DNA of 64,000 nt. Source: Lysobacter sp. ISL-50 (GTDB lineage Bacteria > Pseudomonadota > Gammaproteobacteria > Xanthomonadales > Xanthomonadaceae). Location: NCBI RefSeq assembly GCF_018612875.1, contig NZ_JAGGRI010000011.1, forward strand, positions 1-64,000, written 5' to 3'. Below, piece after piece: positions 20,511-40,843 of the stretch. Made by a program: the position numbers and the translations under genes. Under the pieces are notes generated by a model. That model was not told the DNA's origin. It saw nothing but the letters and a program-made list of their open reading frames with translations, and did no database searches. The stretch's first letter is position 1; every line of letters starts with the position of its first letter.

Positions 20511-21923
20511 TTACGAACGCCCGTACACGTCTTCCAGGCGAACAATATCGTCCTCGCCCAGATAACTGCCCGACTGCACCTCGATCAACTCGACCGGCTC
20601 GGTGCCGCGGTTGCGCAGGCGATGCACGCTGCCCAGCGGGATGTAAGTGCTCTCGTTCTCGCGCAGCTCGAACACCTTGTCGTCGCAGGTGACCTCGGCC
20701 ACGCCCGACACCACGATCCAATGCTCGGCGCGCTTGTGATGCTTCTGCAGGCTCAGCACGCCGCCGGGCTTGACCTCGATGCGCTTGACCTGGAAACGGT
20801 CGCCCATGTCGATGGAGTCGTAATTGCCCCACGGACGATAGACCTTGCGATGGAACAGATGCTCCTGACGCCCGGCCTGCTTGAGCTTGTCGACGATGGT
20901 CTTGACGTCCTGCACCCGGTCCTTGCGCGCGACCAGGGTCGCGTCGGGCGTGTCGATGATGACCAGGTCTTCCACGCCGATCGTCGCGATCATGCGCCGG
21001 TCCGAAGCGCGCACCAGCGAGCCGCTGGTGTCGACCGAGATCACATCGCCTTCGTAGCGATTGCCGTCGTCGTCGCGCTCGGCCACCGCCCACAGCGACG
21101 ACCACGAACCGATGTCGCTCCAGCCGCAGCTCACCGGCACCACCGCGGCGCGGTCGGTCTTTTCCATCACCGCGTAGTCGATGGAATCGTTCGGGCTGGC
21201 GGCGAATTCCTCCTTGCCCAGACGGATGAAGTCCAGATCGGTGTTGGCCTTGGCGTAGGCCGCACGCGCCGATTCGAGAATCTTCGGCGCCAGCCTCGCC
21301 AGTTCGTCGAGATAACGCTGGGCCTTGAACAGGAACATGCCCGAGTTCCAGGCATAGGTGCCGGCGGCCAGATAGCCCTCGGCGGTGGCCAGATCGGGCT
21401 TCTCGACGAAACGGCTGACCTTGTAGCCGCCCTCGCCCAGCGCGTCGCCGCGATCGATATAGCCGTAGCCGGTTTCCGGATAGTCCGGATGAATGCCGAA
21501 GGTGACCAGCCAATCCTGATCGGCCAGTATCGCCGCGCGCGCGACCGCGTCGCGGAACGCGTCGACGTCTTCGATCAGGTGATCGGCCGGCAGCACCAGC
21601 ATGGTCGCGTCGGGTTCGCTGGCGACCAGGTGCAGCGCGGCCAGCGCGATCGCCGGCGCGGTGTTGCGCGCGATCGGTTCGAGCAGTATGGCGCCGTTGG
21701 CGACGCCGATGCCCTGCAACTGCTCGCCGACCATGAAGCGATGGTCCTCGGCGCACACGGTGACGGGGGCACCGGTGTCGGGCAGGGCGTTGGCGCGCAG
21801 GATGGTTTCCTGGAACAGCGAGTGATCGCCGATCAGCGACAGGAACTGCTTGGGCTGATTCTGACGGGACAGCGGCCACAGGCGCGAACCGCTGCCACCG
21901 CTTAGAACGACGGGATGAAGCAT
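20511..21923 (-). CDS. xanB: Mannose-1-phosphate guanylyltransferase / mannose-6-phosphate isomerase
   Basis: A 470-residue bifunctional enzyme giving mannose-6-phosphate and GDP-mannose. The N-terminal nucleotidyltransferase domain starts with VVLSGGSGSRLWPLSR and PKQFL. The C-terminal cupin isomerase domain has PWGNYDSIDMGDRFQVKRI and HHKRAEHWIVVSG. ATG 21923 (MLHPVVLSGG) has GGAG just upstream. GDP-mannose from this enzyme is the substrate of Gmd at 36291-37265, tying it to the polysaccharide locus. No phosphomannomutase (xanA) gene lies beside it, unlike in Xanthomonas. Confidence 0.95.
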   Translation of the reverse strand: MLHPVVLSGGSGSRLWPLSRQNQPKQFLSLIGDHSLFQETILRANALPDTGAPVTVCAEDHRFMVGEQLQGIGVANGAILLEPIARNTAPAIALAALHLVASEPDATMLVLPADHLIEDVDAFRDAVARAAILADQDWLVTFGIHPDYPETGYGYIDRGDALGEGGYKVSRFVEKPDLATAEGYLAAGTYAWNSGMFLFKAQRYLDELARLAPKILESARAAYAKANTDLDFIRLGKEEFAASPNDSIDYAVMEKTDRAAVVPVSCGWSDIGSWSSLWAVAERDDDGNRYEGDVISVDTSGSLVRASDRRMIATIGVEDLVIIDTPDATLVARKDRVQDVKTIVDKLKQAGRQEHLFHRKVYRPWGNYDSIDMGDRFQVKRIEVKPGGVLSLQKHHKRAEHWIVVSGVAEVTCDDKVFELRENESTYIPLGSVHRLRNRGTEPVELIEVQSGSYLGEDDIVRLEDVYGRS

Positions 21924-22103
21924 CCTGGCTCCAGATTTCGGAACGGAAAGGGGCGCCAAGAATAGCCGAACCCCCTGCCTGGCAGGCTTCACGGCACCTA
22001 AACCACGTCCGCGGCGCTGTCGGTACTATGATCGCCGTGCCAGCCCGGGCCGTCGCGCCGCGCCATGCTTCGCCCTCGGCGTTCCTTCCACGGATGGACT
22101 TTC

Positions 22104-22940: not shown

Positions 22941-23091
22941 GGCCCGCCGCGCGGGCCCGGGCAAGGCCGGCGTTTAAAACGCCCACGCGGCCAAAACCCA
23001 TGGCGCGCTGCCCCGGCCGGGCCGTCTCCGTTAGAATTGGCGGCTCTTGGCCGCTCCCGGCCGGACACCCCCCACAAGGAAATCCCGCACG

Positions 23092-23838
23092 ATGAAGATC
23101 CTCGTCGGCTACAAGCGCGTGGTGGACTACAACGTCCGCATTCAGGTCAAGCCGGATGGCTCCGGCGTGGTCACCGACGGCGTCAAGCTGTCGGCCAATC
23201 CGTTCGACGATATCGCCCTGGAAGAGGCCCTGCGCCTGCGCGACAAGGGCATCGCCACCGAGGTCGTGGTCGCCACGATCGCCCCCGCCGATGCCCAGCC
23301 GCATCTGCGCAACGGCCTGGCCATGGGCGCCAACCGCGCCGTGCACGTGGTCAGCGACCAGCCGATCCAGCCGCTGACCGCCGCGCGCGCGCTGCTCAAG
23401 CTGATCGAAAAAGAACAGCCCGACATCGTCATCCTCGGCAAGCAGGCCATCGACGACGACGCCAGCCAGACCGGCCAGATGCTCGCCACCCTGTGGGGCC
23501 GCCCGCAGGCGACCTTCGCTTCCAAGCTCGAAGTCGCCGACGGCAAGGCCACGGTGACGCGCGAAGTCGACGCCGGCCTGGAAACGCTGGAAGTGGACCT
23601 GCCGGCGGTGATCACCACCGACCTGCGCCTCAACGAGCCGCGTTTCATCAAGCTGCCCGACATCATGAAGGCCAAGAGCAAGCCGCTGGAGACCATCCAG
23701 TTCGCCGAGCTCGGCGTGGACACCGGCGACACGCTCAAGACCACCCATTTCGCCCCGCCGCCCAAGCGCAGCAAGGGCGTGATGGTGAAGGACGCGGCCG
23801 AACTGGTCGCCGCACTTAAGCAGAAGGGGTTGCTGTGA
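23092..23838 (+). CDS. etfB: Electron transfer flavoprotein beta subunit
   Basis: A 248-residue ETF beta subunit carrying AMP and helping hold FAD; accepts electrons from acyl-CoA dehydrogenases. The start MKILVGYKRVVDYNVRIQ and the signature stretches LGKQAIDDDASQTGQMLA and DLRLNEPRFIKLPDIMKAK are family-typical. ATG 23092 follows a purine-rich CAAGGAAA. The stop overlaps the etfA start (TGATG), so the two subunits are translationally coupled. Confidence 0.96.
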   Translation: MKILVGYKRVVDYNVRIQVKPDGSGVVTDGVKLSANPFDDIALEEALRLRDKGIATEVVVATIAPADAQPHLRNGLAMGANRAVHVVSDQPIQPLTAARALLKLIEKEQPDIVILGKQAIDDDASQTGQMLATLWGRPQATFASKLEVADGKATVTREVDAGLETLEVDLPAVITTDLRLNEPRFIKLPDIMKAKSKPLETIQFAELGVDTGDTLKTTHFAPPPKRSKGVMVKDAAELVAALKQKGLL

Positions 23839-24779
23839 TGAGCAAGGTTTTAATTGTTGCCGAACATCTCGACGGCAAGCTCAACGCGTCCACCGCCAAG
23901 TGCGTGTCGGCCGCGCAGGCTCTGAAGCCCGACTCCATCGACATCGTCGTGCTCGCCGCCGATCCGGCCGGCATCGCCGCGCAGGCCGCGCAGATCGCCG
24001 GCGTCGCCCGCGTGCTGACCGTCGCCAACGCCGCCAACGCCCACGCCATCGCGCAGGTGCTGGCGCCGCAGATCGCCGCGCTGGCCAAGGGCTACAGCCA
24101 CGTGTTCGGCCCCTCGACCACCTTCGGCAAGGACCTGATGCCCTGCGTCGCCGCGCTGTTGCACGTGGCCCAGGTGTCCGACGTCATGGCGGTGGAAGGC
24201 AGCCACACCTTCAAGCGTCCGATCTACGCCGGCAACGCGATCATCACCGTCGAAGCGCCGGGCGATCACACCGTCGTCGCCACCGTGCGCACGGCCTCGT
24301 GGCCGGAAGCGGCGAAGGGCGGCAGCGCCGCGATCGAAGCCGCGTCAGTCGAAGCCGCGCTTCCGACCCACACCCGTTTCGTCGGCCTGGCCGCGGGCAA
24401 GTCGGATCGCCCCGACCTGCAGAGCGCCAAGCGCGTCGTCTCCGGCGGCCGCGGCGTGGGTTCGGCGGACAACTTCAAGATCATCTACGACTTCGCGGAC
24501 AAGCTCGGCGCCGCCGTCGGCGCCTCGCGCGCCGCGGTCGATGCCGGCTACGTGCCGAACGAACTGCAGGTCGGCCAGACCGGCAAGATCATCGCCCCGG
24601 AGCTGTACGTCGCCGTCGGCATCAGCGGCGCGATCCAGCACCTGACCGGCATCAAGGACGCCGGCACCATCGTCGCCATCAACAAGGACGGCGAAGCGCC
24701 GATCTTCGAGATCGCCGATATCGGCCTGGTGGGGGATTTGTTCAAGCTGTTGCCGGAACTGGAAGCGGCGCTGGGTTGA
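23838..24779 (+). CDS. etfA: Electron transfer flavoprotein alpha subunit
   Basis: A 313-residue ETF alpha subunit that binds FAD through the C-terminal domain. The FAD-binding signature is visible as [20 protein letters not shown] and [22 protein letters not shown] 23838 gives [10 protein letters not shown]; a GTG one codon earlier also exists. It passes electrons to the ETF-QO encoded at 13443-15110. In Xanthomonas etfA marks one border of the variable LPS locus, and the polysaccharide genes start about 160 bases downstream here as well. Confidence 0.96.
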
Positions 24780-24936
24780 AAGCACTGCCGCCGGTGGCCG
24801 CGGATGCGTCCGCGCGCCATCGGCGGAAACCGGCATTACGCGCTATCGCGGCAGTATTTTCCTGTAAGCGGAACGCCTGCTCGGCTCAGAAGCCGACGAA
24901 CGAATAGCCAGCGAACTCATCGGCGATGGATCCAGA

Positions 24937-25629
24937 ATGATAGTGGGCAATGGTTTAATCGCTAAGGCATTCCAGGCGCGCTCCGAAAACGATCGGGCGA
25001 CGACCATTTTCGCCTCCGGGGTCTCGAACTCTTCGGAAACATCGGAGCAGTCGTTCGCGCGCGAACGCCAGCTTCTGCTCGAAACGCTGCGCGCCGCGCA
25101 GGGCAAGTTCGTTTATTTCAGCACCTGCAGCCTGACCGACGCCGATCGGAAAACCACGCCATACGTGGTGCACAAGACAGAAATGGAAGCGCTGGTGCTC
25201 GCCTATGGCGACGCGCTGGTGCTGCGCCTGCCCCAGGTGGTGGGCTATACGCCCAATCCGCACACGCTCACGAACTTCCTCGCTTCGCGCATCGCGAGCG
25301 GAGAACGCTTCACCTTGTGGACGAAGGCGATCCGGTCGTTGATCGACGTCGACGACATCGCCAGCATCGCAACGGCCATGATCGACAGTGGCTTCACTGG
25401 ACGCGTGACGGATATCGCCGCGCCCGGCGCGCTGACGATGATGGAACTGGTGGAGACGATGGAGCGGCTTCTGGCCAGGAAGGGCAACTACGATCTGGTG
25501 GAACGCGGCGGCGGCAATGTTCCTGACGCCGCCCTGACGATGCAGTTCGCGCAAAAGCTCGGAATCGACCTGCTCGACCGCTACCCGGAAAGAGTGCTGA
25601 GAAAATATTACGGAGGCCGGCGACCATGA
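24937..25629 (+). CDS. Short SDR-type NAD(P)-dependent sugar dehydratase/reductase-like protein
   Basis: A 230-residue Rossmann-fold protein, shorter than usual extended SDRs (about 300). The N-terminus MIVGNGLIAKAF gives a compressed G-x-G-x-x-A nucleotide loop. The catalytic pair appears as FSTCSLTD (Ser) and YVVHKTEME (Y-x3-K). The substrate is unknown; the neighbours suggest a sugar nucleotide or lipid-linked sugar. Its stop overlaps the next start as ATGA (25626-25629). It begins the rightward block of the polysaccharide locus. Confidence 0.75.
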   Translation: MIVGNGLIAKAFQARSENDRATTIFASGVSNSSETSEQSFARERQLLLETLRAAQGKFVYFSTCSLTDADRKTTPYVVHKTEMEALVLAYGDALVLRLPQVVGYTPNPHTLTNFLASRIASGERFTLWTKAIRSLIDVDDIASIATAMIDSGFTGRVTDIAAPGALTMMELVETMERLLARKGNYDLVERGGGNVPDAALTMQFAQKLGIDLLDRYPERVLRKYYGGRRP

Positions 25630-26585
25630 TCGAAACGAGCGTAGTCATTCCCGCTTACCGCAGCGCCAAGATCCTTCCGCTGCTGGCGCAGCGACTGCAA
25701 GAAGCGTTGGACGGCATGTATCCGGACGCTGGCGGCGAACAGCGCTATCAGGTGATTCTGGTCAACGACTGCAGCCCTGACGACACCTGGGCGTGCCTGG
25801 AGGAACTGTCGCGCGATCGCCCCTGGCTGCAGGGCGTCAACCTGCGCAAGAACGCCGGACAGCACAACGCCCTGCTGACCGGCCTGCGCTACGCCCGTGG
25901 TCGGTACATCATCATGATGGACGACGATCTTCAGCACGATCCGGCCGACATTCCCAAAATCGTCGCCTCGCTCAAGGCCGGAAACGACGTGTGCTATGCC
26001 AGATTCAAGTCCAAGCGCCACGCGCTGTGGAAACGACTCGGCAGCCGCTTCAACAGCATGATCGCCGACCGCCTGCTGCGAAAGCCCAAAGACCTCTACC
26101 TGTCGCCGTTCAAGGGCGTCGTCCGCGGCGTTCGCGATCAGATGGTCCGCTTCGTCGGCCCGCATGTGTACCTCGACGGCCTGATCCTGGCCAGCACAAA
26201 TCATGTGGCGATGATCGAGCTCGACCATCACGAACGGCTCGACGGCCAATCCGGCTACAGCCTGACCAAATCGATCTCGCTGTGGCTGAAAATGGCCACG
26301 AGTTTCTCCATCGAGCCCCTGCGCATCGCCTCGTTGCTCGGCATCTTTTTCTCCGGCTTCGGCTTTCTCGCCGCGGTCGCCCTGATCGTGCAACGTTTCA
26401 CCTTGAACGCCATGCCCGTGGGCTGGTCCTCGCTGATCGTCTCGGTGCTGATCCTCGGCGGCATCCAACTACTGGCGTTGGGCATCATCGGCGAGTATGT
26501 CGGCCGCGTCCTGTTGCACGTGAACGGAACGCCGCAGGCCGTGGTGGGCTCGACGATCAATGTAGAGGCCGGCGAACGTGACTGA
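25626..26585 (+). CDS. GtrB/ArnC-like polyprenyl-phosphate glycosyltransferase (GT2)
   Basis: A 319-residue GT2 enzyme that probably moves a sugar from a nucleotide donor onto polyprenyl phosphate at the inner face of the membrane. The GT-A motifs NDCSPDDTW and DDDLQHDP (metal-binding Asp) are visible. Two C-terminal membrane helices (about residues 235-300) are typical of DPM1/ArnC/GtrB proteins. It overlaps the upstream SDR gene by four bases and the downstream gtrA-like gene by eight, so the set is translationally coupled. Confidence 0.9.
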   Translation: MIETSVVIPAYRSAKILPLLAQRLQEALDGMYPDAGGEQRYQVILVNDCSPDDTWACLEELSRDRPWLQGVNLRKNAGQHNALLTGLRYARGRYIIMMDDDLQHDPADIPKIVASLKAGNDVCYARFKSKRHALWKRLGSRFNSMIADRLLRKPKDLYLSPFKGVVRGVRDQMVRFVGPHVYLDGLILASTNHVAMIELDHHERLDGQSGYSLTKSISLWLKMATSFSIEPLRIASLLGIFFSGFGFLAAVALIVQRFTLNAMPVGWSSLIVSVLILGGIQLLALGIIGEYVGRVLLHVNGTPQAVVGSTINVEAGERD

Positions 26586-26988
26586 CCGCCGCCTCGACAA
26601 GCTGCTGGCGCACGACGGCATGCGCAAACTGGTGCTGTACGCGATCTGCGGAGGCTCCGGCGTCTTGCTGGACTTCGCCACCTACACGACGCTGCTGTCC
26701 TTCGGCATCCACTACCAGGCCGCCAACGCATGCGGTTATCTGGCCGGCACGCTGCTGAGTTTCGCGCTGAACCGCCATTTCACCTTCCAAACCTACGACA
26801 ACACGCTGCGGCGCCTCGCCTTGTTTTTCGCCGCGGCAGGCGTCGGCTATGTAATTTCGTCCATCGCGCTTTGGCTGCTGATCGATCGCATCGGGCTCAA
26901 CCCGCTGCTCGCCAAGATCGCCACGTTGGGCGTGGTTCTGGTCGTCCAGTTCTCTCTGAATCGGGCGATTACGTTCCGCCAGCGATAA
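26578..26988 (+). CDS. GtrA family flippase-like membrane protein
   Basis: A 136-residue protein with four membrane helices and the GtrA family segments FLYAICGGSG-like (LVLYAICGGSGVLLDFATYT) and FALNRHFTF. GtrA proteins are thought to flip polyprenyl-linked sugars to the periplasmic side. It starts with GTG 26578, overlapping the end of the GT2 gene by eight bases. With the GT2 upstream it forms a GtrA-GtrB pair. Confidence 0.9.
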   Translation: MTDRRLDKLLAHDGMRKLVLYAICGGSGVLLDFATYTTLLSFGIHYQAANACGYLAGTLLSFALNRHFTFQTYDNTLRRLALFFAAAGVGYVISSIALWLLIDRIGLNPLLAKIATLGVVLVVQFSLNRAITFRQR

Positions 26989-27013
26989 AAGCACAACTAC
27001 CTCAGGTACCGAT

Positions 27014-28342
27014 ATGCAGTTTGATACAGCCATCGTTGGCGGCGGATTCGCCGGACTTGCCGCGGCATACGAGTTGGCCCGGAACGGAAAGCGCGTCGTG
27101 GTTCTGGAACGCGACGACGCCGTGGGCGGCCTCGCCGGCGGCTTCGATATCGGCGGACACGTTCTGGAGAAGTTCTATCACCACTGGTTCAACAACGACA
27201 AGCACATCCTCGAACTGATCGAGGAGCTTGGAGAGAACGGAAACGTTCTCCTGCGCCCTACTCGAACCGGCATGTACTACGCCGACCAGTTCTTCCGCTT
27301 GAGCACGCCGCTCGACCTGCTGCGCTTCAAGGCCCTGCCCTTCCTCGACCGCATCCGCCTGGGCGTGGCGGTGCTGCGCGCCCGCTCGGTGAAAGATTGG
27401 TCCAAGTTGGAGCACCTGAGCGCCAAGGAATGGCTGATCGACCTGTGCGGCCAGCGCGCCTACGACGTGGTCTGGGACCCGCTGCTGACCGGCAAGTTCG
27501 GCGCCGTAGCCGAAGACGTGTCGGCGGTATGGTTCTGGAAGAAGCTGGTCCTGCGAGGCGGCAGCCGCAGCAGTTCCGGCGATGAAGTGCTGGCGTACTA
27601 CAAGGGCGGCTTCGCGGCGCTCGCCGAACGTCTCGAACAGGAAATCAAAAAGCTCGGGGGCGAAGTGCGATTGCGCACCCCGGCCCTGCGTGTCGTCGCG
27701 GGCGCCGATGGACGCGCTGCCGGCGTCGAAACCGCCGAGGGCATGATCGAGGCCGACAACGTCGTACTTACCACTGCGCTGCCAGTTACGGCGGACCTGA
27801 TCGAGGCGATCGCTCCGGCGGCGTATGTCGAATCCCTGCGCAGAATCCGCTATCTCTCGAACGTCTGCCTTGTGCTTGCGCTGAATCGAAGCCTGTCGGA
27901 AACCTACTGGCTGAACGTCAACGACCCGGGTTTTCCGTTCGTGGGAGTGATCGAGCACACCAACTTCGAGCCGCCGTCGTCCTACGGCGGCCACCACATC
28001 GTGTATCTGTCGAAGTATCTGCCGCCTTCGGATCCGATGTACACGATGAGCGCGGACGAAATGCTGGAGTTCTCCATCCCCCATATCCAGCGCATGTTCC
28101 CCGACTTCAAGCGCGAATGGATAGATCAGCACTACGTCTGGCGCGCGGATTACGCGCAGCCGATCGCGGAAAAGAACTACTCCGCGCTCGTGCCCGGCAA
28201 TGCGACCCCGCTGCCCAACGTATTCGTCACCACGATGGCGCAGGTGTACCCCGAGGATCGGGGCACGAACTACGCCGTCCGCGAGGGCAGGCAACTCGCA
28301 CGCAAGCTCCTGGGTGAACCGGGCGCGACGCCTCAAGGATGA
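27014..28342 (+). CDS. FAD-dependent oxidoreductase (protoporphyrinogen-oxidase-like) of the polysaccharide locus
   Basis: A 442-residue flavoprotein. The N-terminal FAD motif is AIVGGGFAGLAAAYEL followed by VVLERDDAVGGLAGGF. The rest fits the COG1232 / amine-oxidase superfamily, which also resembles UDP-galactopyranose mutases. It is coupled to the following membrane glycosyltransferase-like gene by an ATGA overlap (28339-28342) and follows gtrA by 25 bases. A heme role is unlikely in this context; oxidation or isomerisation of a lipid-linked sugar is a possible job, by inference from neighbours only. Confidence 0.8.
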   Translation: MQFDTAIVGGGFAGLAAAYELARNGKRVVVLERDDAVGGLAGGFDIGGHVLEKFYHHWFNNDKHILELIEELGENGNVLLRPTRTGMYYADQFFRLSTPLDLLRFKALPFLDRIRLGVAVLRARSVKDWSKLEHLSAKEWLIDLCGQRAYDVVWDPLLTGKFGAVAEDVSAVWFWKKLVLRGGSRSSSGDEVLAYYKGGFAALAERLEQEIKKLGGEVRLRTPALRVVAGADGRAAGVETAEGMIEADNVVLTTALPVTADLIEAIAPAAYVESLRRIRYLSNVCLVLALNRSLSETYWLNVNDPGFPFVGVIEHTNFEPPSSYGGHHIVYLSKYLPPSDPMYTMSADEMLEFSIPHIQRMFPDFKREWIDQHYVWRADYAQPIAEKNYSALVPGNATPLPNVFVTTMAQVYPEDRGTNYAVREGRQLARKLLGEPGATPQG

Positions 28343-30369
28343 GCTCGCCCCCTATGGACAATGCGACTGCGGCCCGGAATCGATGGGCCGGCTTCGCATG
28401 GCCCCTCGTCGGCGCCGTCGGCGCCGCGATCGTGCTGGCCGTGCTCGTGGCCCAGCCGGCTTGGAGGTTCGGCGACGGCGCCGAGTACTACGCGCTTTAC
28501 CTGGCCATTTTGGAACACGGACGGCCGTTCATGATCGAAGGAGCGTGGCGCGACTACGCCGCGCTCGCGGGCGACGGATCCATCGCGTCCATGGTCGATA
28601 CCGCCAGACTGCGCGCTGCCTTCCCGGTACTGGCGGACGCGCACACCGCCGATTTCAACCATTTCTGGTTCTATCCCGCGCTTGCTGCGGGCATAGCGGC
28701 CGCGCTGAAACTGGTCGGACTGAACCTGGCGCCGCATACCGCCTTCCTTACGTTGCACGCCCTTTTGTTCGGCGCCACGCTGACACTGGCCGGGCGACTG
28801 CATGGCGTGCGCGGCGCCGCGGCAACGGCATTGCTGTTCGCGGCTTCGCCCGTACTGTGGTTCGCGGCGAAGGTGCACACGGAGTTCTTTACCGTCGCAC
28901 TGGTACTGCAGACCTTCATCCTGGTGAGCCGCGGCAAGCTCTTGTACGCGGCGCTGCCCATCGCCGTTGCCTCTACGCAGAACATCAGCCTCGCCGCTAC
29001 CGCTTGGGCCCTGATCGCTTTCGGTCTGCTCGGCAATCGCCTTTTCAATCGTTCGACCGGCGTTTGCGAATGGGTCGCGGCCGCGCTCGCCTTGGCCGCG
29101 ACGGCGCTGCATCCGCTCTACTATCTCTATCGCCACGGCGTCGTCACCCCGCAACTGAAGGCGGGTGGCGCCGTGGTCGGCGGCAATGCCAATCAGTTGC
29201 TGGCGGTATTGATCGACCCGGACATCGGGCTGTTCCCTAACTGGTGGTTCGGAACCTTCATCCTCGTCGCAGGCCTGGCGCTTGCACTGCGCTATCGACC
29301 GAGCTTGAAGTTCGTCTACACGGCGATCGCGGCGATATACCTGATCACCAACCTGTTCGCCCAGGCATCTACCGTCAACCTCAATTCCGGTTCGATCGAT
29401 CTGTCGCGTTATGCGCTGTGGTACGTGCCGATCTTCTACGCACCGCTGGTTTGGCTCATCGCTGAATCGACCCGAAGGCCGATCCGCTGGCTGCTAGCGC
29501 TCGTGATGACCGCTGTCGCCGCGCCCCTGGTCGCCTGGAATCTGAGCTGGTATTGGCCGCCTCAGTACGATCGCTATACCGAGCCGAGCATCGTCTCGCA
29601 GATGCTGCAGTCGAGATTCCCCGACCTGTACGATCCGCCGCCGGAAATCTTCATCGAGCGCAACTCCGGCCATAGCGAAATCGATATTCCGCTCGCCGCT
29701 ATCGCCGGCCCGGGCTGCCGAAAACTGTATATCCCTGCAGAATTGCTCGGCGCCAAGGCGATGAAAATAGCATCGCGGCACCACTGCAATTTCGACGACG
29801 ATCGGGTAGCGGCCCTGGTCGCGGACAAATTGGCCGAACGTCCGCGGCAGGACGCGGTCAAGGGCATATACATACGTTTGAGTGAAACCGACGCCGAGCG
29901 TCTACGGCTGAAATTTGGCGTCGGACGAATCGTCTTCGGCGCTGAAGCGAAAGGCAGCGCGACGCTGAGCGCTGGCTGGAGCGCTCCGGAAGCTTGGGGC
30001 ACGTGGTCCAACTCGGCGCGCCCCAGGATCGAGATTAATGTCGCGGATTGTGGCTCGGATGTACTGCATGCCACGATCAGCGCGCGCGGATTCGCGATCC
30101 CACAGAACCCGCGCGTCGTCGCGGCGGTGCAGGTCGCCGGGCGCAAAGTGGGCGCCTACGATTTCACCGTGGACAGCGCCGGCCCCAAGCAATTGCAGTT
30201 CGAGTTTTCCTGCGCTGACGCGCGCCGCTTGGGGAACGTGCTCGCGTTGGATTTCGATATCACCGGCGCGGTCACCCCGTCTTCGCTGCGGCTCGGTCCT
30301 GATACCCGCCTGCTCGGCATAGGCGTGGAGTGGATTGAGCTCACCCGCCATCCGGCGGCGGCGCACTGA
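28339..30369 (+). CDS. GT-C-like polytopic membrane protein with C-terminal beta domain
   Basis: A 676-residue protein. Residues 20-410 hold about ten membrane helices, with an acidic first periplasmic loop (FGDGAEYYALYLAI) as in GT-C glycosyltransferases that use lipid-linked donors. The C-terminal ~250 residues are soluble and end in a beta-rich domain with GWSAPEAWGTWSNSARPRI and DTRLLGIGVEWIELT, a pattern I associate with DUF7024-type domains in glycan loci. As last gene after GtrB and GtrA it is the candidate transferase acting on the O-antigen in the periplasm. The GT-C assignment is from topology and context. Confidence 0.7.
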   Translation: MSSPPMDNATAARNRWAGFAWPLVGAVGAAIVLAVLVAQPAWRFGDGAEYYALYLAILEHGRPFMIEGAWRDYAALAGDGSIASMVDTARLRAAFPVLADAHTADFNHFWFYPALAAGIAAALKLVGLNLAPHTAFLTLHALLFGATLTLAGRLHGVRGAAATALLFAASPVLWFAAKVHTEFFTVALVLQTFILVSRGKLLYAALPIAVASTQNISLAATAWALIAFGLLGNRLFNRSTGVCEWVAAALALAATALHPLYYLYRHGVVTPQLKAGGAVVGGNANQLLAVLIDPDIGLFPNWWFGTFILVAGLALALRYRPSLKFVYTAIAAIYLITNLFAQASTVNLNSGSIDLSRYALWYVPIFYAPLVWLIAESTRRPIRWLLALVMTAVAAPLVAWNLSWYWPPQYDRYTEPSIVSQMLQSRFPDLYDPPPEIFIERNSGHSEIDIPLAAIAGPGCRKLYIPAELLGAKAMKIASRHHCNFDDDRVAALVADKLAERPRQDAVKGIYIRLSETDAERLRLKFGVGRIVFGAEAKGSATLSAGWSAPEAWGTWSNSARPRIEINVADCGSDVLHATISARGFAIPQNPRVVAAVQVAGRKVGAYDFTVDSAGPKQLQFEFSCADARRLGNVLALDFDITGAVTPSSLRLGPDTRLLGIGVEWIELTRHPAAAH

Positions 30370-30593: not shown

Positions 30594-32165
30594 CTAGACC
30601 GCTTTCTTCCTGAACACCTTCACCATGCCCCGCAGCAGCAATTCTTCGCGGCTGAACCCCAGCGACAAACAGTGCTGGAAATTCTCGTGCGATTCGCTGC
30701 CGGGCACGACGCAACCGCTCCATTCGCCTTCGTGCAGATACTCCACCTCGCCGCGGATCGACGCGAACAATTCGCGGTAGAAGGAAAGACGGCGCCGATT
30801 CATGGCATGCACGTACTCCTGCCCTTCTTCGTCCGAGCCGCCCGCCTGCTTCATCATTTCCACGAACTGCCCGTCGTCGCTGATCAGGTGCTGCCAGGGC
30901 CGGGGAACGCGATGTTGGAAGTGGCTGCCGAAATCGCACGTCCAGATCGGGTCGAAAGTGAGATAGGCCATCCCACCGGGCTTGAGCACGCGCACGATCT
31001 CGCGCAGGGCCGCGGCCGGATCGGGAATGTGCTCGAAGGCGTTGAAAGACAAGACCACGTCGAACAGATCGTCGCGATAGATCGTGCTCATCGCGTCGAC
31101 GGCGTGGAACTCGAAGCGTTCGACCGGGAAATCGTGGCCGTGGCGCAGGACCTTCTCTTTCACCAGCTTCACCAGCTCACCGCCGAAGCGCGCGTTCTGA
31201 TCGAAGTAGTCGGTGCAGTAGATGCGTCTCACATCGTTGGCCAACAACGCACTGTGGCCGCCGGCACCGCCGCCCACGTCCAGCGCCAGTCCATCGGCGG
31301 GAAGCGTTACGCCCAGCGATCCCAGCAATTGCCGCATGCGCTCGACATCGGCCAAATGCTCGGCGACGTCCGCGGCCTCGGAATAACCTCCGCTGGCGGC
31401 CTCGGGCTGAGCTGGCTGATCCGGGGTTTCGTTATCCGTTGCGGTCACCGGTAATTTCCCCGCGGGCAAATAGAACGTATTGGTTGTCGCGCCATGAAAC
31501 GGATTCATCGCGCCGTCGTCCCAGCGGAACGGCCGATAGCCGAGTTCGCTCAGCAACTCGGTCACGTTGTGCCAATCGCTGTTCTCCACCAACAGCACCG
31601 GCTGGAACTCGACAATCGTCCGCAACAGGCCGCGGATCGCCGACGCCTCGAAACCTTCGACATCCACCTTGATCAGGTCGGGGCGCAGCGCGCAATCGTC
31701 GCCGCGCTCGACCGGCACACGCATCTGCAACAGTTCCGGCGCCTGGCCGCCGCGCGCGAGATACTTTTCGCGCACCCACGGCTTGTCGAACTGGCTCGGG
31801 TCGAAAGTGGATTCCTCAAGAAACACCTGGCCGCCCGAGGACGGTACATGCAGGATCAGTTCGCCGGCCTGCGTACCCAGCGCCGAACGATGCACATGCA
31901 CCGCCCCGCCGGATTCCTGCGCGACCCGCTCCAGCCCCGGCCACAGCTTCGGATTGGCCTCGAAGGAGTGGATTTCCACGGTCTCGCCGAGGACCGCCCT
32001 GACCGAAGCGATGGTCTGCCCACCGTTGGCCCCGATGTCCAGCACCGTGCGGATCGTCCGCAGATGACTGTTGATCCAGGCCAGCGCCTGGAAATCAGGG
32101 TCGTGTACCTCCTTGTTCCGGAGCTGATGAATCACCCTTCCGTGCAACGCTTCGATTTCGCTCAC
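30594..32165 (-). CDS. Two-domain protein: FkbM-type methyltransferase fused to a class I SAM methyltransferase
   Basis: A 523-residue protein. The first half (about 1-235) is FkbM-like: TVLDIGANGGQTIASV binds SAM, with LIKVDVEGFEASAIRGL. The second half (about 285-523) is a separate class I domain with LALDVGGGAGGHSALLA, FDVVLSFNAFEHIPDP and LREIVRVLKPGGMAYL. It probably methylates two positions of the surface glycan. The start is GTG 32165, giving a 71-base overlap with the upstream glycosyltransferase gene; a later start is not evident. It is the last gene of the leftward block. Confidence 0.85.
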   Translation of the reverse strand: MSEIEALHGRVIHQLRNKEVHDPDFQALAWINSHLRTIRTVLDIGANGGQTIASVRAVLGETVEIHSFEANPKLWPGLERVAQESGGAVHVHRSALGTQAGELILHVPSSGGQVFLEESTFDPSQFDKPWVREKYLARGGQAPELLQMRVPVERGDDCALRPDLIKVDVEGFEASAIRGLLRTIVEFQPVLLVENSDWHNVTELLSELGYRPFRWDDGAMNPFHGATTNTFYLPAGKLPVTATDNETPDQPAQPEAASGGYSEAADVAEHLADVERMRQLLGSLGVTLPADGLALDVGGGAGGHSALLANDVRRIYCTDYFDQNARFGGELVKLVKEKVLRHGHDFPVERFEFHAVDAMSTIYRDDLFDVVLSFNAFEHIPDPAAALREIVRVLKPGGMAYLTFDPIWTCDFGSHFQHRVPRPWQHLISDDGQFVEMMKQAGGSDEEGQEYVHAMNRRRLSFYRELFASIRGEVEYLHEGEWSGCVVPGSESHENFQHCLSLGFSREELLLRGMVKVFRKKAV

Positions 32166-35100
32166 TTGCCACCCCCAAAATGATCTGTCGCAGATGGTCC
32201 GCCAAAGCCGCCCAACTGTATCCCTGTGCCGTGTCGATTCCCGCTGTGCCGTGCCGATCGGCCAGCGCCCGGTCGCCGAGGTAACGCTCGATCGCGGCGG
32301 CCACGTCGTCGAAGTTGTCGGCCAGATAACCGTTCTCGCCGTCGCGCACCAACTCGGTGAACGCCACGGTCGAGCTGCGCGCGATCACCGGGCGTTTCGC
32401 CATCCACGACTCGAGCAACACGATTCCGAAACTCTCGCTCTCGCTCATATTCGCCAGACACAACGAATCGGCCAGCGCTCCGATCACCACATCGCGCGAC
32501 TGCGCGCCGTAGTAGTGAACACCGGCGCCCTGCAGGGGCAGGCCGTCGTCGTCGGGTCCGATCAGCACCACGTCCAGATCGTGCCCGGCCCGGCGCAGCT
32601 TTTCGCAGGCCTGCACGATCATGCGGTAATGCTTGGCGCCGGTCTTGCGGCCCAGGACCAGTACGAACGGGCGCTCGCCGCGGTGCAGGCGACGGAAGGC
32701 CTCGCGACCGCGGGCGACCGATTCGTCCGAGAAATCCTCGGTCGTCAAGCCGCCGCCGGGCAACGCCACCGACCGCTCGCAAACCCGGTCGAAGAACGCG
32801 GCCTTGCTCGCGGCCGGCGCCGCGACGACCGCGTCGGCGCGCGCGAACGCGTCGTAGAAATCGCGCCAGTGGTAATAGCGGTCTTCCATGTGGAAGTGCG
32901 GCAATACGACCGTGGCCAGACCGTTGACCGCGCCCGTGCGCACGCCCAGGACCGAGCTGGCGAACGGAACGCCTTGAGCCAGGATCACGTCGTAGTTGGC
33001 GGCGTTCTGGTCGAGCCAACGCTCCATCGCACGGCTGTGCGGGCCGCGGATACGGCAGAAACGACGGTCGATGTCGCGCGGACGGCGCTTGACGACTTCG
33101 ATCAGCTTGGCCACCCAGCGTTCGGGCAGGTTGGCGCGGGCGCGCTCTTCCATGCCTTGGCGCAAATCGATCTCGACGCTGCCGTCCGTCCCGATCAGTT
33201 CGATCGAGGAGACGATGTAAGCCAGTTCACGCGCGTCCTCGCTGCTGTCCATCACCGCCGAGGCGCGCAATTCCAACAGCTCGCCCGTCGCAGGCAGCGC
33301 CTGCTGGAACGAGAATTTGCCGGACAAACTCTTCACGGCCGATTCGGCGCCGCCGACCCGCATCGATACTTGCACAGGCTGCAGCGCGAGACCCGAGACC
33401 CGGACCGACTCGATCCCGGCGGGCAATTTCACCTGAGCGATCCGCCCGGCCCAGCGCACGATCCGGCCGTCGCTGTTCTCCGGGAAATTCCAGCCGCCGA
33501 GCAGGCCTACGCCAAGCTCTTGCGCCAGGTCCGCGCCGATCAGCAACGATTCCTTCATCCAGGCTGTTTGCAGAACGGCCGCGTCGTCGAAACGGTCTTG
33601 CGGCGGCGGATCGGTCGGAAACAACCGCACCTGTCCGCGCAACGCCGGAACGCCATCGTGCGCCGAAGGCGGCTCGTAGTCGGCGGAGAAATGCAGGCGA
33701 TCGTGGATCGCCCCCACGGCCGGCGCCACCACGTCGATCTGCAGGTCCTCGCTCTTGTCCAACTCGCGCAGGACGTTGAGCAAAAAAGTCTCGGCGCCGC
33801 CGCGCGCGGGCTCGCCGAAGCGGTAAGTCAGCACCAGCACCCGGCACGGCCCGTCGCGGCCGATCAGACGACGCAGCTCCCGGCGCATGCGCCCGCCCAG
33901 GATGCGCCAGTCCAGGTGCGAGGCCACGTAGTCGGTCGCTTCCGCGGACAGGCGCGCGCTCAACTCGACGTCGTCGCACAGCTTGGGAATCCAGTCGCTC
34001 ATCGCTTCCGGATTCGTCTCGATGTAATGCGTACCGGCTTGCAGTCCCGGGAAACCGCGCGCGCCGACCGCCGAACTGAGCAACGGCAATCCGGCGGCGA
34101 GGAAATCCGGCACCTTGAGGCTGGAGCCGCCGCCCTCGAACAGCGGATTGACCGCGATGTCGGCGATCGCGAACAACGCCTCCTTGTCGGACTGACTCAA
34201 AAAGCCGAGCAAGGCCACATTGGGCGGCAACGCCGCGACATTGATCGCTTCGCACACCGAGCCGACCAAGGCGAAATTCACCTGCGGATTGCGCGCGGCC
34301 AGTTCGTCGATGATGAACTGCGCGGCGCGCGCGTTCGGCGGATGCGCGCTACCGACGAACACCGCCAGCGGCGGCAGATTCCGCGCGCGATCGGACGGCC
34401 GCAGTCCGGCGCGATGCACTTGCGGCATACGCACGCCGTTTTCGACCGTGAGCACCTGCGAGAGGCCGTAACGCTCACGGAAACGCGCGGTATCGCTATC
34501 GCTGACGCACAGGACCAGATCCGCGCGCTCGGCCATCTCGCGCTCCAACCGCTCGGTCAGCTCGATCCACTGGCCGCCGTCGTCGCGCGCCGCCAACAGC
34601 TCGCGCTTGAGCTCGATCTCGACGTTCTGCGATGAATGCACGATCGGCATGCCCTGCGGGACCAGCCCGAGCAGCGGCGCCAGAAAGCATTGTTCGAAAC
34701 TCACCACGGCCGCGGTCGCGATTTCCTCGCGAAACGCCGCGACCATCGCCGGGTTGTCCAGGCAGTGCTTGGCCGCGACCAGATCGGCCACCGACACGCT
34801 TTGCCCCTTCAGCGACTGAATATCCTCGCGCCGGTGCTCGGCGGTCTTGGGCACGGAGCGCTGCAGCACACCGGGCGCGATCGCGCGCCGGATCTCGGCA
34901 TCGCCGTTGTTGAAGCACAGCAACGTCACGTCGAACTCGCGTCCGGCTTCAGTGAGCAACTCCTTGATCCGCACCTGACCGCCGCCCGCGGCCTGATGCA
35001 CTTCGTAGTCGCAGACCGCGAGGATGCGCTTGCGGCCGGCCGCGCCGGCCGGCGCAGCCAGAACCTGCTGGATCGACGCGACCGTGTTCTTGGCTATACC

Positions 35101-36231
35101 CGCCCAGGTATAGCGCGCGTCGGCGAACTGCGCGCCGCGCGCGCCCAGCGCACTCGCGGCCTCGGCGTCGTCGAGCACTTCGCGCAAGGCCGCCGCGAAA
35201 TCATCGAGCTCGCTGATCCGGGCTTGCACGCCCGGCTCGATGTCCAATCCGCGCGCGCCGACCGGGGTGGACACCACCGGCGCTGCGTGCCCCATGTAGT
35301 CGAGCATCTTGAGATTGGTACCGGCGCCGTGACGCAGCGGATTGATCGCCGCGCCGCAGCGCCAGAGCAAATCGTCCTTCTGCGCCGCGTCGACGAATCC
35401 CAACAGTTTTACGTTGGGCGGCACCGGCTGGGTATAGGCCTGACACACCGCGCCGAGCACGTAGAAGGTGACATCGCTCAGCGCCGGCGCCAGATCCTTG
35501 GCGATGTACTCCAATGCATTGATGTTGGGCGGATGCGCACTGCCCAGGAACAGCGCCGAACGCTCGCGCCGCGGCGCGGGATCGGGCCCGGCTTCGGGCT
35601 CGAAACCGTTGGGCGCAAGGAAAATCCGCTCACGCGCAAACCCGAAGGTGTCCGCGAACTCGTTTCGCTCCTCCTCGCTAATCGCCAGCACCGCGGAACT
35701 GCAGGCGATCATCCGGGCTTCCAGGTCGCGGATGAACGCCGCTCCGCGCTGGCCGATCTCGCCATGGAACATCTGCTCGGCGAGCCGGTACTCGACGTTG
35801 TACGCGTTGTAGACGCGCAACTTGCCGTCGCTGCCGGCGCCCCGGTCGTACGGCAGGGTGAACGGCGATTCGTGCACGATCAAATCGGCCGCCGCGACCA
35901 GCCGCCCCATTTGCCGGCCGAGTTCGGTGTCGAATTCGCCCGCCAATGCCAGCGCCAGGCCGGAGCATTCCGGCCCGATCTGCTCGGAGTCGAGCTTCCA
36001 GTGGATCTGATCGGCCTCGCGCGGCTTGGGTACGCGGATCTCGCGGAAAGACGGCGAGTGCACGATGGTTTCGACCTTGGCGTCGGCGTAGGTCGCCGAC
36101 AGCAAGGTCACGTCGAAGACGTCACTAAGATGGCGGTACAACATGTAATAGCGCTGCTCACCGCCGCTGCGCGGCGGTACGAACGCGGGGAAAAAATTGA
36201 TCGCCAGTAACTTGTGTCGCTTCTGAGCCAT
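32095..36231 (-). CDS. Large three-module glycosyltransferase (GT4-like)
   Basis: A 1378-residue cytoplasmic protein with three GT-B modules. Module 1 (about 1-400) and module 2 (about 405-795) are related to each other: both carry GSAHPPN and PPNVxLLGF, with GAGTNLKMLDYMGHAAP in one and GGGSSLKVPDFLAAGLP in the other. Module 3 (about 800-1350) has an N-domain (YRFGEPARGGAETFLLNVL), an inserted beta-rich region (about 910-1020, GGWNFPENSDGR) and a C-domain with LGRKTGAKHYRMIVQACEKL and ESESFGIVLLESWMAKRP. It probably adds several sugars of the O-chain or its adaptor. Confidence 0.88.
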   Translation of the reverse strand: MAQKRHKLLAINFFPAFVPPRSGGEQRYYMLYRHLSDVFDVTLLSATYADAKVETIVHSPSFREIRVPKPREADQIHWKLDSEQIGPECSGLALALAGEFDTELGRQMGRLVAAADLIVHESPFTLPYDRGAGSDGKLRVYNAYNVEYRLAEQMFHGEIGQRGAAFIRDLEARMIACSSAVLAISEEERNEFADTFGFARERIFLAPNGFEPEAGPDPAPRRERSALFLGSAHPPNINALEYIAKDLAPALSDVTFYVLGAVCQAYTQPVPPNVKLLGFVDAAQKDDLLWRCGAAINPLRHGAGTNLKMLDYMGHAAPVVSTPVGARGLDIEPGVQARISELDDFAAALREVLDDAEAASALGARGAQFADARYTWAGIAKNTVASIQQVLAAPAGAAGRKRILAVCDYEVHQAAGGGQVRIKELLTEAGREFDVTLLCFNNGDAEIRRAIAPGVLQRSVPKTAEHRREDIQSLKGQSVSVADLVAAKHCLDNPAMVAAFREEIATAAVVSFEQCFLAPLLGLVPQGMPIVHSSQNVEIELKRELLAARDDGGQWIELTERLEREMAERADLVLCVSDSDTARFRERYGLSQVLTVENGVRMPQVHRAGLRPSDRARNLPPLAVFVGSAHPPNARAAQFIIDELAARNPQVNFALVGSVCEAINVAALPPNVALLGFLSQSDKEALFAIADIAVNPLFEGGGSSLKVPDFLAAGLPLLSSAVGARGFPGLQAGTHYIETNPEAMSDWIPKLCDDVELSARLSAEATDYVASHLDWRILGGRMRRELRRLIGRDGPCRVLVLTYRFGEPARGGAETFLLNVLRELDKSEDLQIDVVAPAVGAIHDRLHFSADYEPPSAHDGVPALRGQVRLFPTDPPPQDRFDDAAVLQTAWMKESLLIGADLAQELGVGLLGGWNFPENSDGRIVRWAGRIAQVKLPAGIESVRVSGLALQPVQVSMRVGGAESAVKSLSGKFSFQQALPATGELLELRASAVMDSSEDARELAYIVSSIELIGTDGSVEIDLRQGMEERARANLPERWVAKLIEVVKRRPRDIDRRFCRIRGPHSRAMERWLDQNAANYDVILAQGVPFASSVLGVRTGAVNGLATVVLPHFHMEDRYYHWRDFYDAFARADAVVAAPAASKAAFFDRVCERSVALPGGGLTTEDFSDESVARGREAFRRLHRGERPFVLVLGRKTGAKHYRMIVQACEKLRRAGHDLDVVLIGPDDDGLPLQGAGVHYYGAQSRDVVIGALADSLCLANMSESESFGIVLLESWMAKRPVIARSSTVAFTELVRDGENGYLADNFDDVAAAIERYLGDRALADRHGTAGIDTAQGYSWAALADHLRQIILGVASERNRSVARKGDSSAPEQGGTRP

Positions 36232-38193: not shown

Positions 38194-38197
<4 letters not shown>

Positions 38198-39590
38198 GGG
38201 CGCCTCGCCACGATGGCGTAATCGGGTGCGACATGCATATGCCACAACATGTCATTGATCGACTTGGAACCGGGAATCTCCGGCGACAGCAGCTCCGGCG
38301 CGTTGAGCGCGCGATGGGCGCTCAACCGCTCGATGCGCGCCTCGGCGAAACCGCGGTTCTCCACCACCCAACGCAACATCGCCGGCGGCAACGGGTTGAG
38401 GTGGGTGGGGTCCATATAAAAATAATGCGAGCCGACCATCAGGTTTTCCGGGTTCGGCGTCTCCAGGAACAGCAAGCCGCCCGGCCGCAGCGCGCGCAGC
38501 GCTTCGTCGATCAACGCCACCACCCGCTCGAACGGCAAGTGTTCGACCAGATGCATCGAGGTGATCGCGCCGGCCGAACCCTCCGGCATGCTGCGCAAGA
38601 CATCTATCGCATCGCCTTCGATCACTTTCAAACCGGTGTCGGCGCAGCTGGCGACGAAATCGTGGTTGAGATCGATGCCGACGGCCTCCAGGTCGTGCTC
38701 GCCGAGCAGTTCCAGCCATTCGCCGCGGCCGCAGCCGATGTCGATGACAGGCGCCCCGGGCACGCCGGCGCCGACCTCGTGAATCCATTCCAGGTACGGC
38801 TCGATGCGCGCGCGCACCAGTTCGCGCGAACCGCGGAACTCGTCTTCGAAATCCGCATACAGCTTGTCCATCGTCGGCCGCACGCGCTCGCGTTCGAGTT
38901 CCGCGCTATGCATGCGCTCGAACATCGGCATCATCCGGGCGACGTTGCGCATCAGGCCGGCGTTCTGTCCGCGCAGTTCCGTCAGCTCGTCCATCAACAG
39001 GTTCAGATGCCGGCCCAGTTCGTGGGTCTCACGCGCCTGAGTCGCTTCGATGGTGTAGTGACGGTCGAAAAGAGCGCCCAGGCGCGCCGCGCCATGCAGC
39101 CAGGACAGCACATGGCCGATCACCGGCTTGCGCTTCCACCGCTGCAGCTTGTACGGCAGCAACAGCCCGTCTATGTGGACCTGCTTGGCCATGCCCTCCG
39201 GCGACCAGCGCAGCTCGGCCAGCACTTCCACCTTGGTGGTGTGCCCGGAACGCAACTCGTGCAGGAAGTAGTTGAAACCCTCCGGATCGGGCTCGCGACG
39301 CAGCACGACGCGGTAGGCCATTTCCACGAAGCTGGCGTCGGAGGGCCCGAGCAACTCATGCAACGTATATTCGCGCTTGACCGGAACCGAATAGCTGCTC
39401 GAGCGCCAGCGCTGCAAACTGTGCGCACCGCTGTCGTGCCCCACGAAAAGGCGATCGACGAGTTCGCGCATCCGCGCGACGGCGCCGTCGGCATCCACCG
39501 CGCCGTCGGACTCGATCGGAATCGAGTCGCGCAGACGCGTGGCGACGGCCCGCATCACCCCATCCACGTCCATCGGGTCCAGCGCGCGGC

Positions 39591-39594
<4 letters not shown>
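38194..39594 (-). CDS. DUF4214 domain-SAM methyltransferase protein next to the O-antigen exporter
   Basis: A 466-residue protein. Residues about 85-150 form a DUF4214-like segment (FVEMAYRVVLRREPDPEGFNYFL). A helical stretch with hydrophobic heptads follows (about 205-260). The C-terminal half is a class I methyltransferase: VIDIGCGRGEWLELLGEHD, ITSMHLVEHLPFERV, ALRPGGLLFLETPNPEN. It overlaps wzt and rmd by four bases on either side. In ABC-dependent O-antigen systems such a methyltransferase can cap the chain, as WbdD does in E. coli; that role is inferred from position. Confidence 0.85.

Positions 39595-40843
<1,249 letters not shown>

Follow-up and report, generated by a model that had tools for sequence, protein, structure and literature searches.

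The cassette and its five genes

The window that we analysed is a stretch of 64,000 nucleotides of Lysobacter sp. ISL-50 (contig NZ_JAGGRI010000011.1, positions 1 to 64,000 of the forward strand). Our subject is a five-gene cassette at positions 24937-30369, in which the three components of a lipid-linked sugar decoration system are accompanied by a short-chain dehydrogenase/reductase (SDR) and by a flavoprotein of the NCBIfam family NF005560 (PRK07233). The decoration system is of a known kind and the flavin enzyme is a recurrent addition to it; the chemistry that we put forward for this enzyme is a testable proposal. Five open reading frames (ORFs), all rightward, make up the cassette:

24937-25629, + strand: short SDR of 230 residues, a probable nucleotide-sugar reductase or epimerase
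25626-26585, + strand: family 2 glycosyltransferase (GT2), polyprenyl-phosphate-sugar synthase of the ArnC/GtrB type (Pfam Glycos_transf_2 and PDB matches)
26578-26988, + strand: GtrA (PF04138), proposed flippase for the lipid-linked sugar
27014-28342, + strand: NF005560 (PRK07233) flavoprotein of clade 1 (NCBIfam and structural model), proposed ring-size mutase of a lipid-linked sugar
28339-30369, + strand: GT-C transferase of 676 residues with a C-terminal carbohydrate-binding-like domain (structural model and PDB structure matches)

A first-pass annotation of this DNA had named the same five rightward genes, and the ORFs, the Pfam and NCBIfam searches and the predicted structures bear it out. 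It had described four of them as tightly coupled; the coupling holds but the number does not, since the successive gaps of -4, -8, +25 and -4 bases indicate that all five are tightly coupled. Pfam matched the SDR to Epimerase (E 2.6e-10), the GT2 to Glycos_transf_2 (E 1.9e-26), GtrA to its own family (E 4.4e-26; PF04138 at 91.8 bits against a cut-off of 26.1) and the flavoprotein to Amino_oxidase (E 2.3e-37). For the SDR, the match covered profile positions 96-236 only, neither an NCBIfam family nor a PDB sequence match at E 0.01 was found, and YxxxK-type residues were seen by eye in the translation. The nearest PDB entries to the GT2, both matching near full length, were ArnC (9hwj, E 5.8e-35) and sll0501 (5ekp, E 5.1e-34), which we take to be a GtrB.

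The fifth protein had no Pfam match, and its profile found no relative by sequence in the PDB (best E 1.3). Foldseek gave three matches to its model below E 0.001, all of them GT-C oligosaccharyltransferases, with TM-scores of 0.31-0.36 only; the clearer fold assignment came from a second structure comparison, scored by Z, which delimited two domains:

28360-29589, + strand: GT-C membrane domain, residues ~8-417, carrying a GDGxEYY loop
29917-30366, + strand: C-terminal beta-sandwich like a carbohydrate-binding module (CBM), residues ~527-676, which matches CBM22 and further domains of this fold at Z 9-11

Residues 8-417 matched ALG12 (Z 16.9), ArnT (16.3), AftA (15.0) and AftB (12.6), with oligosaccharyltransferases also among the best matches, and the GDGxEYY loop residues were invariant in all ten rows of the GT-C alignment. 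The protein is thus a predicted GT-C transferase, assigned by the fold of a model whose confidence is moderate (pLDDT 75). In the nearest named relative, from a Lysobacter sp. metagenome-assembled genome (MAG; L013, 9302-11258), the GT-C gene is split into two overlapping frames, either by a real break or by an assembly error.

That GtrA, GtrB and GT-C form a three-part decoration set to which the flavoprotein and the SDR have been added, as the first-pass annotation had it, agrees with the Pfam, PDB and fold matches. The Gtr three-component system likewise has GtrA, an ArnC/GtrB-type GT2 and a polytopic GT-C in one gene string; the window differs from it by the SDR, by the NF005560 flavoprotein and by the extra C-terminal domain of the GT-C.

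The flavoprotein and its neighbours in other genomes

The flavoprotein belongs to NF005560 over its full length (523.2 bits against a cut-off of 252), a family that NCBIfam names "hypothetical protein". The best 80 of its 542 named relatives, a set biased to near relatives of the window protein, all belonged to the same clade as the latter (clade 1). Within 7 kb they had a GT2 in 69 cases, GtrA in 13 and another flippase family (PF03706/TIGR00374, checked in a Yersinia frederiksenii locus, L082) in 37 (neighbour seeds at E 1e-10, GtrA at E 1e-4). An order survey found NF005560 in 62 of 398 genomes, the Lysobacter genome itself included. All 62 listed survey places outside that genome were retrieved, 10 of clade 1 and 52 of a second clade (clade 2). 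A GT2 was present in 9 of the 10; the tenth stretch (L239) was cut short, and its full contig has one (L064, L185). GtrA was present at all 52 clade-2 loci, DprE2 and an epimerase-type SDR at 51 each, DprE1 at 50 and a UbiA synthase at 45; a single locus with neither UbiA nor DprE1 by seeds did have DprE2.

Dropping five survey rows with cores identical to those of named loci (L239 among them) left 137 non-redundant loci, whose counts supersede those of an earlier and less strict clustering, by which 71 of 81 loci had a GT2. Among the 85 clade-1 loci, 74 had a GT2 within 7 kb and none had a gene of the phosphoribosyl pyrophosphate (PRPP) route, that is UbiA synthase, DprE1 or DprE2. At least one PRPP-route gene was present in all 52 clade-2 loci, as was GtrA, and 3 had a GT2. 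The association of clade with entry-route genes gave Fisher p values of 1e-22 and 5e-39, on rows that are not independent by descent. A flippase gene accompanied 55 of the 85 clade-1 flavoproteins (GtrA in 16, the other family in 39, never both within 7 kb). The first-pass annotation had expected the flavoprotein to keep company with GtrA and GtrB in other genomes, and these figures agree with it. In a tree of 66 flavoprotein rows, drawn at random from 146, and 26 outgroup rows, a single branch set each clade apart from all other rows (SH-aLRT 82 and 99), with one change of entry route; some outgroup rows had implausibly long branches, and we used the two-clade split alone.

A polyprenyl-phosphate-linked sugar is what the two entry routes have in common, and the flavoprotein thus belongs to pathways of such sugars. 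By co-occurrence, its tie to polyprenyl-phosphate-sugar pathways is firm, whatever the route by which the sugar enters. The full set of SDR, GT2, GtrA and flavoprotein recurred in 13 of the 85 clade-1 loci which, with the GT2 counts, argues that the arrangement in the window is not due to chance. Whatever the chemistry, the survey reveals an additional component that recurs next to the synthase, the flippase and the GT-C.

The family was found in 4 of 150 genomes of a phylum-wide draw, again with the Lysobacter genome included, which marks the flavoprotein as an accessory gene. Among seven control genomes with GtrA, NF005560 was detected at E 1e-60 in Haloferax volcanii only. The family reaches archaea, being over its cut-off in the control genomes of H. 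volcanii and Methanosarcina acetivorans. Eight plasmid records matched the flavoprotein; phages gave no match to the window flavoprotein at E 1e-20, and E. coli genomes none to a Yersinia flavoprotein gene. At eight loci, mostly of Bacteroidota (L028, L034, L036, L042, L047, L048, L055, L061), a relative of carboxyl transferases, checked with Pfam in L042 only, lay upstream of the GT2-flavoprotein pair.

The Lysobacter genome carries one flavoprotein of each clade. The clade-2 copy lies on contig C40 in the order UbiA/HAD, DprE1-type, DprE2-type, SDR, flavoprotein and GtrA, and the same order occurs, under independent annotation, on plasmids of Burkholderia stagnalis and Agrobacterium salinitolerans. 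The window cassette has a GT2 in place of a UbiA-type polyprenyl phosphoribose synthase; the second cassette has the UbiA/HAD protein. Another type of cassette, which we call the CDP type, was recognised by seeds at 25 of the 85 clade-1 loci. In Y. frederiksenii it comprises CDP-glucose 4,6-dehydratase and glucose-1-phosphate cytidylyltransferase, both over their family-model cut-offs, together with an SDR, a GT2, a flippase-like protein, the flavoprotein and a GT-C. The dehydratase seed also picks up genes like GDP-mannose dehydratase, and its raw counts were not used alone. Judged by their genes, CDP-type cassettes provide a path to CDP-4-keto-6-deoxyglucose. Another 36 loci of clade 1 had a GT2 and neither a window-type SDR nor the cytidylyltransferase. 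On one contig (C45 of genome G538; L185, L239, L064), a clade-2 DprE cassette and a clade-1 CDP cassette adjoin, with ~7.5 kb between the flavoprotein genes.

A possible ring-size mutase and its rivals

The model of the flavoprotein (pLDDT 90) matched phytoene desaturase (Z 35.0), protoporphyrinogen oxidase (PPOX; 32.7), monoamine oxidase (MAO; 31.6) and UDP-galactopyranose mutase (UGM; 31.0). The predicted fold is thus that of the amine oxidase/phytoene desaturase/UGM class, and fold alone leaves the function undecided. The FAD-binding motif begins at residue 9, which speaks against a signal peptide, and by eye the protein looks like a soluble FAD enzyme. Three identities were rejected, namely DprE1, because FAD_binding_4 (PF01565) was absent among 12 Pfam matches; membership of the UGM family, with TIGR00031 at 28.2 bits against a cut-off of 303.75; and membership of the HpnE family, with TIGR03467 at 95.6 bits against 283.05. 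The Lysobacter genome gave no TIGR00031 match at E 1e-60.

Two short features of the flavoprotein recall UGM:

27542-27544, + strand: codon of Lys177, aligned with a UGM arginine (profile alignments and conservation)
27914-27967, + strand: UGM-like segment, codons 301-318 (profile alignments, pattern counts and conservation)

In profile comparisons of clade 1, residues 301-318 aligned on the IEH-type segment of UGM, whose end reads TRI(I/T)EH-type letters; a related stretch of clade 2 aligned on the same UGM segment. The segment pattern occurred in 81 of 85 flavoprotein rows, or in 80 of 82 distinct genes (the window gene accounts for two rows and the C40 gene for three), in 3 (strict form) or 4 (loose form) of 7 UGMs, and in none of 37 HpnE, CrtI and PPOX sequences. 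In these profiles and counts, 3 of 10 UGM and 2 of 15 HpnE loci had given no protein, and the three UGMs were added later. At the position of Lys177, at least 90% of clade-1 sequences have Lys and at least 90% of clade-2 sequences have Arg; the second UGM arginine aligns with Gly311, and this Gly is conserved in at least 95% of both clades. Both arginines contact the UDP diphosphate in UGM, and the one basic residue that is left would fit a monophosphate, that is, a polyprenyl-phosphate sugar. In sum, the flavoprotein is like UGM and Fcf2 in fold class, in the IEH-type segment and in one arginine position occupied by Lys or Arg, but differs from them in falling below the TIGR00031 cut-off, in having Gly for the second arginine and in its tie to lipid-linked rather than nucleotide-linked sugars.

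We propose, with a probability of roughly 0.38, that the flavoprotein is a pyranose/furanose ring-size mutase acting on a lipid-linked sugar, where chemistry, substrate, direction and acceptor are those that we infer as follows. The SDR would complete a nucleotide sugar, which the GT2 would load on polyprenyl phosphate at the cytoplasmic face. The flavoprotein would then turn the lipid-linked pyranose into a furanose, as a UGM-like mutase for which polyprenyl monophosphate replaces the nucleotide diphosphate. GtrA would flip the product, and the GT-C, aided by its C-terminal domain, would join the sugar to an exported chain, perhaps a rhamnan. In clade 2 the direction would be the opposite, from a PRPP-derived lipid-linked pentofuranose made by the UbiA synthase and DprE1/DprE2 to a pyranose.

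A wider and more tentative version would make NF005560 a large family of pyranose/furanose mutases for polyprenyl-monophosphate sugars. Nucleotide sugars that take the GT2 route would arrive on the lipid as pyranoses, to be made into furanoses by the mutase in hexose cassettes. PRPP-derived sugars, according to the accessible part of Kelly et al. (2024; PMC11127046), arrive on the lipid as furanoses. In DprE-type pentose cassettes, DprE1/DprE2 would yield arabinofuranose (Araf) and the mutase D-arabinopyranose (D-Arap) with a free C4 hydroxyl, on which the SDR could act as a 4-epimerase to give L-xylopyranose (L-Xylp). The accessible part of PMC10888714 reports alpha-D-fucofuranose (D-Fucf), a 6-deoxyhexofuranose, in the O-polysaccharide of Pseudomonas syringae pv. 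phaseolicola, and a CDP-type clade-1 cassette occurs in Pseudomonas avellanae (L075); as far as tested, cassette and sugar concern different strains. L-Xylp side chains occur in Ralstonia, with an O-polysaccharide bearing terminal beta-L-xylose (PMC10450222, accessible part), and a link of the clade-2 cassette to such side chains is a prediction. The fold matches of the GT-C, which include arabinofuranosyltransferases, also favour a furanose.

Among the closest described systems is the pentofuranose system of Citrobacter youngae O1/O2 (GT136). From the accessible part of PMC11127046, it shares with the cassettes a lipid-linked donor, a flippase, a GT-C with C-terminal CBM and an optional SDR epimerase, and a UbiA protein with HAD domain also stands first in clade-2 cassettes. 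It differs in having a UbiA synthase and a MATE flippase where the window has GT2 and GtrA. The words flavin and FAD do not occur in the main text of that paper, and the accessible parts of PMC6804347, PMC7816849 and PMC4878081 contain nothing on the flavoprotein.

Several observations weigh against a mutase. Whole-profile matches to HpnE (E 8.6e-24), CrtI (1.2e-20) and PPOX (7.5e-18) were all stronger than those to UGM (E 3e-9 with 7 sequences, 1.6e-10 with 10; 5.5e-8 for the clade-2 profile), and phytoene desaturase, at Z 35.0 against 31.0 for UGM, was the best solved structure. The UGM segment alone scored just 6 bits in one profile comparison, and its pattern missed 3 of 7 UGMs, one clade-1 locus (L060) and the single clade-2 gene tried, that of C40. 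The lost arginine is one that UGM needs, and its loss may equally signal another reaction. By seeds, 11 of the 85 clade-1 loci had no GT2, of which L016 and L018 end at a contig end and the others do not. An epimerase-type SDR in 51 of 52 clade-2 loci is what one would expect of a redox partner. Finally, the analysis revealed no substrate and tied none of the cassettes to a genome whose side chain is solved.

The main rival is the reading of the first-pass annotation, which took the flavoprotein and SDR as a redox pair comparable to mycobacterial DprE1/DprE2, in which the flavoprotein would oxidise a hydroxyl of the lipid-linked sugar and the SDR reduce it back. The comparison is apt in that both pair a flavoprotein with an SDR in the handling of a lipid-linked sugar, and that DprE1/DprE2-type genes, the former with FAD_binding_4, flank the clade-2 flavoprotein. 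It fails for the window flavoprotein itself, whose flavin fold is a different one and which lies beside no DprE genes. The pairing has in its favour the many oxidases of this fold class, the near-constant SDR of clade 2 (beside DprE1 in 50 and DprE2 in 51 of the 52 loci) and the window-type SDR of 13 clade-1 loci. In clade 1, however, a seed search at E 1e-3, by which divergent SDRs could be missed, revealed no same-strand SDR within 5 kb at 48 of 85 loci, and by BLASTP the window SDR had no detectable similarity to the SDRs of either other cassette type, which leaves the flavoprotein without a constant partner; CDP-type cassettes, moreover, would need an SDR anyway to finish the nucleotide sugar. 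We therefore consider this epimerase plausible for clade 2 and weaker for the clade of the window, and unlikely on the whole. If it were true, it would be a second solution, with an unrelated flavoprotein, to the problem solved by DprE1/DprE2.

It is improbable that the flavoprotein modifies the polyprenyl chain instead, by saturation, desaturation or isomerisation, so as to reserve a carrier for periplasmic decoration. HpnE, CrtI and phytoene desaturase, its nearest relatives by profile and fold, are isoprenoid enzymes, and the presence of the family in two archaea would suit such a role. Yet NF005560 was absent at E 1e-60 from six of the seven control genomes with GtrA, the UGM-like pattern has no counterpart in the 37 HpnE, CrtI and PPOX sequences, and the flavoprotein tracks sugar-specific genes (cytidylyltransferase, DprE1/DprE2, SDRs), which a carrier change need not do. 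Least probable of all is a stable oxidised or otherwise altered sugar, such as a keto-sugar, transferred unchanged: the fold class permits oxidation and the 48 clade-1 loci show no SDR that would reduce a product, but no keto-sugar side chain has been linked to such a cassette, and "xylulofuranose" was not found among the literature matches listed for that word.

Should the flavoprotein be a ring-size mutase, the ring form of a sugar would be set on the lipid carrier and not just at the level of nucleotide sugars, for which we found no description in the literature searched, most subscription journals lying outside the search. It would also give a function to NF005560, explain the second flavoprotein of DprE-type O-antigen cassettes and help to predict side-chain sugars from genomes.

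The lipopolysaccharide locus and the slot beside etfA

The cassette sits in a lipopolysaccharide (LPS) locus bounded by metB and etfA, the end of EtfA lying 157 bases upstream of the SDR start:

20511-21992, left of EtfB/EtfA: GMP/PMI gene (Pfam and NCBIfam)
23047-23838, + strand: EtfB (Pfam ETF, E 5.2e-39), LPS locus boundary together with EtfA
23835-24779, + strand: EtfA (Pfam ETF_alpha, E 3e-35), LPS locus boundary together with EtfB
43098-44279, - strand: MetB-type gene (Pfam Cys_Met_Meta_PP, E 3e-154), the other LPS locus boundary

To the right of the cassette are the metB-type gene, an ABC-2 permease, a Wzt with C-terminal domain and a GDP-mannose-dehydratase-like gene. Xanthomonas LPS loci are located between metB and etfA (PMC2238763, accessible part), and this is the same locus as that of the window. 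A table in that part lists a GtrA-family protein, "phytoene desaturase"/"protoporphyrinogen oxidase", epimerase, dehydrogenase, oxidoreductase and prenyltransferase, a set that, from the gene list, looks like a clade-2 cassette; the accessible part proposes no role for these genes. Transposon hits in the LPS cluster of Xac are reported in the accessible part of PMC3130047. From its position in the LPS locus, the cassette would add its sugar to O-antigen in the periplasm.

At 62.8%, the G+C content of the cassette is below that of etfBA (67.9%) and of the outer flanks (66.6-66.8%), and NF005560 was matched in just one of the five further genomes of the genus that the order survey lists. Lower G+C and patchy presence fit an exchangeable cassette, and we infer that it is an exchangeable side-chain module of the LPS O-antigen. 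EtfA lay inside the retrieved stretch at 24 of 52 clade-2 and 8 of 10 clade-1 survey loci, from which it appears that three cassette types (DprE, window and CDP) alternate beside etfA across the order. Each alternative cassette in this slot (24780-30369 in the window; survey loci L178-L239) has an NF005560 flavoprotein, and the slot has the look of a site at which side-chain genes are exchanged.

Three further genes on the - strand of the window encode multidomain proteins: a fused methyltransferase with FkbM and SAM methyltransferase domains (30594-32165), a protein of 1378 residues with several GT4-type glycosyltransferase domains in a single chain (32095-36231) and a second fused methyltransferase in which DUF4214 is joined to a SAM methyltransferase domain (38194-40212).

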